Origin: a virus
DNA length: 40,633 nucleotides
IMG/VR virus record: IMGVR_UViG_3300048833_000705
Span: 1-40,633 of that record
Reading direction: 5' to 3' (one strand)
Below are positions 1,116 to 9,997 of the stretch, in pieces. The notes below the pieces were generated by a model that searched no databases, was not told where the DNA came from, and saw only the letters and a list, made by a program, of their open reading frames with translations. Each line of letters opens with the position of its first letter. The stretch's first letter is position 1. Both the position numbers and the translations under genes were made by a program.

Positions 1116-1236
1116 TTTATGTTCCCCCGACTCGCCTAGTGCAATGTCGAGTGTAGGGGAAAGGGCGGGCGCGCGGGATGTTGCCCTGATTAAGCCCCCG
1201 CGTGCCCGCCTCTCACATCTGCGGGGGGGGGGTAGC
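1116..1236. promoter_or_regulatory. divergent control region between minus-strand gene and early operon
   Basis: These 121 bases separate the minus-strand gene from the first early gene and should hold both promoters, by analogy with the Mu operator region. No good -35/-10 pair can be read for either strand. A stem of 7 bp (1195-1201 with 1221-1227) encloses a 19-base loop just before the early start. Its right arm runs into a 10-G homopolymer. Confidence 0.4.
1223..1232 (+). repeat. 10-G homopolymer at the start of the early operon
   Basis: Ten consecutive G residues end 4 bases before the ATG at 1237 and occupy the ribosome-binding position. The first five can pair with CCCCC at 1195-1199. 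A change in tract length would alter the spacing or strength of the ribosome site, or the hairpin. Confidence 0.8.
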
Positions 1237-8764: not shown

Positions 8765-9105
8765 CACCCGATCCCGCCAAAGTCGCCGAGCTCTCCGCGG
8801 CCCTGAAATCCGGCGGCTGGGCGGGCGTGATGCATGCCGATACCCGCGACGAGGCCATCTGGCTCTACCGCTCCAAGCTCGATCCCCGCGTGCTGGCGGT
8901 TACGTGTGTCCCGCGGCGGCGTGGCGGTCCCCCGGCGACCATCTCCTATGGCCTCGGCGACCGGTCGGAAGACGTGCTCCTGAGTGTGCTCGGCGCCATC
9001 ACGCGCGAGGACGACGTCTGCACCCTCTACGACGCGCTTGAGGATCTCGCGGCGGCCATCCTCAAGCTGGACGCGGCACCGGCCGACGCGGAGGCCGAGC
9101 TGTGA
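8761..9105 (+). CDS. hypothetical early protein, 114 aa
   Basis: A small alpha/beta protein with an N-terminal helix (AKVAELSAALKSGGW), a strand-rich centre (DEAIWLYRSKLDPRVLAVT) and a C-terminal helix. The family is not recognised. It overlaps the previous gene by four bases, and the GTG of the methyltransferase lies inside its last codons. Confidence 0.55.
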   Translation: MTPDPAKVAELSAALKSGGWAGVMHADTRDEAIWLYRSKLDPRVLAVTCVPRRRGGPPATISYGLGDRSEDVLLSVLGAITREDDVCTLYDALEDLAAAILKLDAAPADAEAEL

Positions 9106-9740
9106 GCGAATGGCCCTTCGGCGCCCTGCGCCCGCTCTCCTATGGCGTGCTGCTCGCGGACCCGCCCTGGTCCTATGAGATGTACGGCGCCGGCGGCTAC
9201 GGCAAGTCGCCGGAGGCGCATTACGAGACCATGAGCGACGCGGAGATCGCGGCGCTGCCCGTGAGCCACCTGGCCTCCGGCGATTGCCTGCTGTGGATGT
9301 GGGCGATCTGGCCCAAGCTCCCGGCCGCCCTCGACGTGATGCGCGCGTGGGGCTTCCGCTACAAGACCGGCGGCTCCTGGACCAAGACGACGCGCCACGG
9401 CAAGCGCGCTTTCGGCACCGGCTACATCCTGCGCTCCACCACCGAGCCGTTCCTGATCGGCACGATCGGCAACCCGGCGGTCGCCAGCCGGCGCGTCCGG
9501 AACCTCATCGAGAGCCCGCGCCGCTTGCACAGCCAGAAGCCGCCGGAGGCACGCGCCATGCTGCGCGAGCTCCGCCCGCACGCCTTCGCGGCCGAGCTGT
9601 TCGGCATCGAGCCGTGGCCCGGCGCCGACACGTGGAACCCCAAGCCGCACCGCCCGCCGACCGAGCCCGCCCCTTCAACGGGGGGGGGGGTACCGGACAG
9701 CCGGGACTCTTCCAGCCCTGAATTTTGGGACCTGACATGA
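9102..9740 (+). CDS. MT-A70 family DNA N6-adenine methyltransferase
   Basis: This 212-residue protein should methylate adenine N6 with S-adenosylmethionine. The catalytic DPPW motif is at residues 20-23 (LLADPPWSYEMYG). The rest of the MT-A70 fold follows: LLWMWAIWPKLP, a GGSWTK segment, STTEPFLIGTIGNP, and a C-terminal SRRLHSQKPPEAR-like stretch with an ELFGIEPWPGADTWNPK region. Its likely use is protecting phage DNA from restriction or marking it. After residue 190 the protein runs through an 11-G tract, so the last 19 residues depend on tract length. In the frame given, the stop overlaps the next ATG. Confidence 0.9.
   Translation: MSEWPFGALRPLSYGVLLADPPWSYEMYGAGGYGKSPEAHYETMSDAEIAALPVSHLASGDCLLWMWAIWPKLPAALDVMRAWGFRYKTGGSWTKTTRHGKRAFGTGYILRSTTEPFLIGTIGNPAVASRRVRNLIESPRRLHSQKPPEARAMLRELRPHAFAAELFGIEPWPGADTWNPKPHRPPTEPAPSTGGGVPDSRDSSSPEFWDLT
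9680..9690 (+). repeat. 11-G homopolymer inside the methyltransferase gene
   Basis: Eleven G residues encode Gly-Gly-Gly near the C-terminus. With 11 Gs the protein ends FWDLT. With 12 (or 9) it would end TGQPGLFQP at 9721. With 10 it would end ALNFGT. Tracts of this length are prone to slippage. Confidence 0.85.
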
Positions 9741-9997
9741 CCCGGATCAGACGCCCGAAGCGCAAGCGCGCACTCACGAAGACGGTGCCCATCGCCGAGG
9801 CGATGAAGGTGTCGCTGATCGCCGAGTGCTGCGCGGAGATGGAGGCAAAGGGCTGGCCCATGCCGAAGGTCATGAGCGTCCGGATGGGGCTGCGCGTCTG
9901 GCGCTGGAGCCTCACCTTTCGCCGCAGCAGCGAACGCGGCAGGGAGATGGAAAGGCACTCCTGGCAAACCCCGCCGCCCGCTTGGGCCAAGGGGTGA
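9737..9997 (+). CDS. hypothetical basic protein, 86 aa
   Basis: The N-terminus is strongly basic (TRIRRPKRKRALTK), followed by a helical segment with two adjacent Cys and a Trp/Arg-rich part (RVWRWSLTFRR). No family is recognised. It is coupled by an ATGA overlap to the methyltransferase in the 11-G frame. In the 12-G frame the upstream stop would lie 15 bases before this start, so tract length could also change its translation. Confidence 0.5.
   Translation: MTRIRRPKRKRALTKTVPIAEAMKVSLIAECCAEMEAKGWPMPKVMSVRMGLRVWRWSLTFRRSSERGREMERHSWQTPPPAWAKG

Follow-up and report, generated by a model that had tools for sequence, protein, structure and literature searches.

An MT-A70 methyltransferase gene carries an 11-G tract in its predicted unstructured tail

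The window analysed here is the whole 40,633-nucleotide stretch of IMG/VR virus record IMGVR_UViG_3300048833_000705. Its source is a Mu-like phage of an alphaproteobacterium, the Mu-like character following from a GemA gene in the neighbourhood of the locus and from blastn matches between the stretch and the GemA genes of several phages; megablast returned no near-identical phage. The locus, all of it on the + strand, comprises an MT-A70-family adenine DNA methyltransferase gene (9102–9740, GTG start, 212 residues), an 11-G homopolymer within that gene (9680–9690), and a following gene of 86 residues (9737–9997) whose start, in the 11-G frame, forms an ATGA overlap with the methyltransferase stop. 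This second gene matched no family and no PHROG, and no homologue was confirmed by patterns in viral_contigs or by tblastn in phages; a single one was found via synteny in a related virus record (L006).

The methyltransferase was assigned from a Pfam match to PF05063 (E = 1.1e-22, 81.2 bits, with the cut-off at 23.9, over residues 14–178), from a match to the PHROG 359 DNA methyltransferases (E = 5e-60), and from an AlphaFold2 model whose best Foldseek matches are Tetrahymena MTA1 and human METTL3 (E down to 6e-16). The DPPW catalytic motif lies at residues 20–23. From residue 181 onward (9642–9737) the model has no secondary structure and pLDDT falls at about 48–57 per 10-residue block; on this basis, and from the variation of this region among relatives, we describe it as a predicted unstructured C-terminal tail. 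The tract, which encodes the TGGGV segment, begins near residue 193, and as the Pfam domain ends at residue 178 the original prediction was right to place the run beyond the MT-A70 core. Given the lack of modelled structure from residue 181, the tract would lie in a disordered tail and the catalytic domain would stay intact at any tract length.

At residues 178–186 (about 9633–9659) a conserved WGN[EQ]xxKF segment is replaced: the window virus and the relatives L006 and L007 have TWNPKPHR there, and L008 and L009 have TWGxPHR. GNQ residues of METTL3 contact the cofactor, and the proteins with the replaced segment may have an altered cofactor-site edge.

Every tract length leaves an open frame to a nearby stop

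The record sequence has exactly 11 G at 9680–9690, and a recount agreed with the tract length, with the frame change predicted for one added or two removed G, and with a stop displaced 19 bases upstream. As recorded, the protein ends in STGGGVPDSRDSSSPEFWDLT (212 residues, stop ending at 9740). With 12 or 9 G it would end in TGQPGLFQP, the stop then ending at 9721 (the QPGLFQP-stop end, 9698–9721, is read only at these two lengths). This frame had been described correctly and a third one overlooked: 10 or 13 G lead to an end in YRTAGTLPALNFGT, with a stop ending at 9735. The stops of all three post-tract frames (9721, 9735, 9740) span 19 nt, and all three frames stop at most 15 nt from the start of the next gene. 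A change in tract length alters only the predicted disordered tail and no truncation is possible; since the three stops lie within 19 nt of each other, slippage could exchange the last ~9–16 residues and would never turn the enzyme off.

The tract exceeds chance length. G runs of lengths 1 to 6 occur 6742, 2651, 460, 82, 20 and 3 times in the window, those of 7–9 not at all, and those of 10 (1223–1232) and 11 once each, leaving the distribution empty between 6 and 10; beyond these two there is no G or C run of at least 7 in the window. Markov simulations produced a run of at least 11 in 10%, 0.5%, 0% and 2.5% of cases at orders 1, 2, 3 and 4, respectively. An 8-mer dinucleotide shuffle was not significant, the observed count being reached in 20 of 100 shuffles.

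A long homopolymer near the end of a gene, followed by three short open tails, might also reflect slippage of polymerase or ribosome on the G run, so that a single, unchanged DNA sequence would yield a constant mix of tails. RNA folding around the tract is weaker than in shuffled sequences (z = +1.5) and no relative carries a comparable signal, both of which speak against such slippage, and we consider it very unlikely. No repeats surrounding the tract were found at the setting used.

The tract is absent from homologous genes

Homologues were collected by tblastn and pattern scans, giving 168 distinct genes with that of the window and 167 without it. The original prediction had itself listed homologues lacking a G run as an outcome that would tell against it; none of the 167 has a G or C run of at least 7 at the tract position. 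Within the gene, a run of 8 occurs in only two other homologues (L079 and L108), in both cases in the last codons, the one in L079 being 6 nt upstream of the following start. No G or C run of at least 8 occurs in the five virus records (about 217 kb) that are nearest by methyltransferase gene. Judged from these comparisons of sequence, the tract appears private to the window virus as far as the searched collections show, collections which include few relatives above 80% identity and may be missing records very close to the window. Closer relatives were also sought in class, genus and family genomes, where none exceeded 77%.

Most homologues end shortly past the WGN[EQ]xxKF segment. The nearest relatives by identity (L006, 82%; L008 and L043, 77%; L007, 74%; L009 and L044, 72%) carry the changed segment, TWNPKPHR or TWGxPHR, and have longer tails in all cases except L007. 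The ends of these tails differ (SPDLWSVAQ in L006, QPSLFLAP in L008, PMPLFEGS in L009, EAGSAA in L007).

Elsewhere in the family, the methyltransferase frame extends by more than 100 residues in L012 (3547–3915) and L013 (3547–3897), where it runs antisense to an opposite-strand frame with a signal-peptide-like start (MRAVFALVLVLVALPADA in L012, MRNLLSMLLVLAAGSPALA in L013); L010 has a similarly long tail. The L012 and L013 ends possibly record the insertion of a convergent accessory gene where the methyltransferase ends.

Spacing to the next gene favors the recorded frame

Among the 94 genes at 45% identity or above (window included), the modal distance from methyltransferase stop to next start is −4, the ATGA overlap (55 genes), and the +15 spacing that the QPGLF frame would leave occurs once. 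In L006, the closest relative, the stop likewise overlaps as ATGA with the start of an equivalent 86-residue gene. As the overlap is common to this relative and modal in the family, the 11-G frame looks ancestral, with a likelihood ratio over the alternative that we put at about ten by estimate rather than computation. QPGLF had been proposed as the more natural protein end; homologue spacing points instead to the 11-G frame, and L006 ends in SPDLWSVAQ, which the recorded end SPEFWDLT resembles (frame 0 against L006, p = 0.06). The alternative QPGLFQP resembles the QPSLFLAP of L008 and L043 (shuffle p = 0.009 before correction). With 12 comparisons made, neither similarity withstands correction (lowest p 0.009), and over the 9 codons of the shared stretch codon statistics are slightly better for the QPGLF frame (−0.25 versus −0.48 per codon). 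Peptide alignments and post-tract codon usage were both rejected as arbiters of the frame, neither being decisive and the codon stretch being too short.

The tract is known from one sequence, and assembly homopolymer lengths can be wrong; in published work such lengths varied between sequencing methods (PMC10877375). The recorded length could thus be off by at least one base and the real gene fixed in another frame, a reading to which the slight codon preference for QPGLF lends something. Against a miscall, the recorded length gives both the family-typical ATGA overlap and an end like that of the closest relative, and we judge it decidedly unlikely.

A possible clamp-binding motif in the alternative tail

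The QPGLF of the alternative tail fits Q-x-x-L-F, a motif absent from the recorded 11-G frame. The consensus for binding the bacterial beta clamp is QL(S/D)LF, although wider variation is tolerated (PMC9690074); the alternative frame gives a C-terminal Q-P-G-L-F that deviates at positions 2 and 3 and that is neither conserved nor part of the present frame. Across the family, Q..[LMI]F occurs within the last 20 residues in 3 of the 168 genes, in two cases within the ordinary WGN[EQ]xxKF segment, which is a conserved family end likely to have another role. There is no sign of clamp binding as a family property, and the clamp-motif idea, drawn from sequence, is weak: what stands of it is the match in the alternative tail and its likeness to the L008/L043 end, and the proposed binding role finds no echo in a family where three genes carry the pattern.

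These observations bear on whether the tract is a true phase-variable switch, in which slipped-strand mispairing would alternate SPEFWDLT with QPGLFQP and the latter form would bind the host beta clamp and bring the methyltransferase to replicating DNA. At 11 G, the tract has a length at which slippage of G runs is known from other bacteria and phages, each of the two frames resembles the end of a real relative (SPDLW in L006, QPSLF in L008), and Q..[LMI]F would arise by chance in about 0.6% of unselected ends; a precedent in Campylobacter phages is cited in PMC10877375. Set against this, the run is found in no homologue, Q..LF is not a family feature, the third frame carries neither motif, and the tail similarities do not survive correction. 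For the phase switching put forward in the original prediction, no second tract length was found either: no variant with fixed flanks was present in viral_contigs, where near-identical records may be missing. We therefore regard such a switch as unlikely. It keeps some plausibility because each frame closes with a P-x-hydrophobic-aromatic type of peptide that a relative also has. A more specific form, which we hold to be improbable, is that poly-G slippage exchanges a C-terminal docking peptide, of SPEFW type as in L006 or of the QPGLF clamp-binding type as in L008, and so would re-target the enzyme rather than turn it on or off; we know of no example of phase variation in partner or location among phage methyltransferases.

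Other long G runs precede start codons

The second long run of the window, 10 G at 1223–1232 (+ strand), is followed after 4 nt by the ATG (1237) of a 57-residue reading frame, itself upstream of a transcriptional regulator gene (1413) and a transposase-like frame; a length change here would shift the spacing for ribosome binding. Neither the L006 nor the L009 record, both from related viruses, contains a G run of at least 8. Related loci, viral or prophage, also have runs of 9–10 G shortly before a start codon (L045, 2370–2378; L040, 2969–2978; L031, 2521–2529), which in L045 and L040 is that of the methyltransferase itself; for phase-variable expression, these runs would be stronger candidates than the tract of the window.

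Runs placed just before start codons in this group (window 1223, L031, L045, L079) raise the thought that the 11-G run works at the DNA or RNA level, for instance by contributing to a quadruplex or by serving the next gene as a G-rich ribosome-binding stretch. Yet the run stops 46 nt short of the next start, too far away for ribosome binding, with no start codon close behind it, and a role of this kind seems highly improbable.

Discussion

The tract is, we think probably, a recently expanded, unstable poly-G run within a dispensable tail, a mutation hotspot rather than a demonstrated switch. An ordinary phage-borne MT-A70 methyltransferase would have gained the 11-G run in its unstructured tail, in the window virus only, the run having presumably expanded by replication slippage where constraint is weak. 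Such a tail would tolerate every frame, the catalytic domain being untouched, and the run could, given this tolerance, lengthen and slip without hindrance. The ancestral frame would be the 11-G one, translationally coupled to the next gene via the ATGA overlap, and continuing slippage is probable, yielding what we expect to be harmless tail variants of small effect. Two observations sit awkwardly with a neutral expansion: both window frames happen to offer an end of the P.[LMIF][FW] type, a pattern confined, in the last 20 residues, to 3 of 168 genes, all in the small group of relatives around the window, and one for which ~0.6% of unselected ends is expected each; and the presence of two long G runs with none of 7–9 hints at something that generates long runs here, be it biased slippage, selection or a habit of the assembly.

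The catalytic domain is that of the MT-A70 enzymes of Rhodovulum phage RS1 and Rhodobacter phage RC1 (PF05063, PHROG 359), and in RS1 too the methyltransferase gene overlaps the next by 4 nt. The window protein and its nearest relatives differ from most phage MT-A70 homologues in their longer tail, and the window alone has the G run. Our literature search on phage poly-G methyltransferases found nothing direct. Poly-G tracts of Campylobacter phages are hypermutable according to Sorensen et al. (2021, Cell Rep 35:109214), as cited in PMC10877375, so that the general idea of poly-G phase variation in phages is not new; the present case shares with them a poly-G run in a phage gene at a length that could slip. 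The title of that study speaks of variation that creates phenotypic diversity and evades bacterial resistance, whereas here there is one sequence and only a disordered enzyme tail is affected. Type III Mod methyltransferases are phase-variable and likewise carry simple repeats in the gene, which switch the enzyme on and off (PMC13076061); in contrast, every frame here keeps the whole catalytic domain, making on/off switching impossible.

As it stands, the locus shows a long homopolymer persisting where it cannot break a gene. If slippage does occur and the tails differ in function, the result would be a switch of the partner or location of the enzyme, not of its presence.
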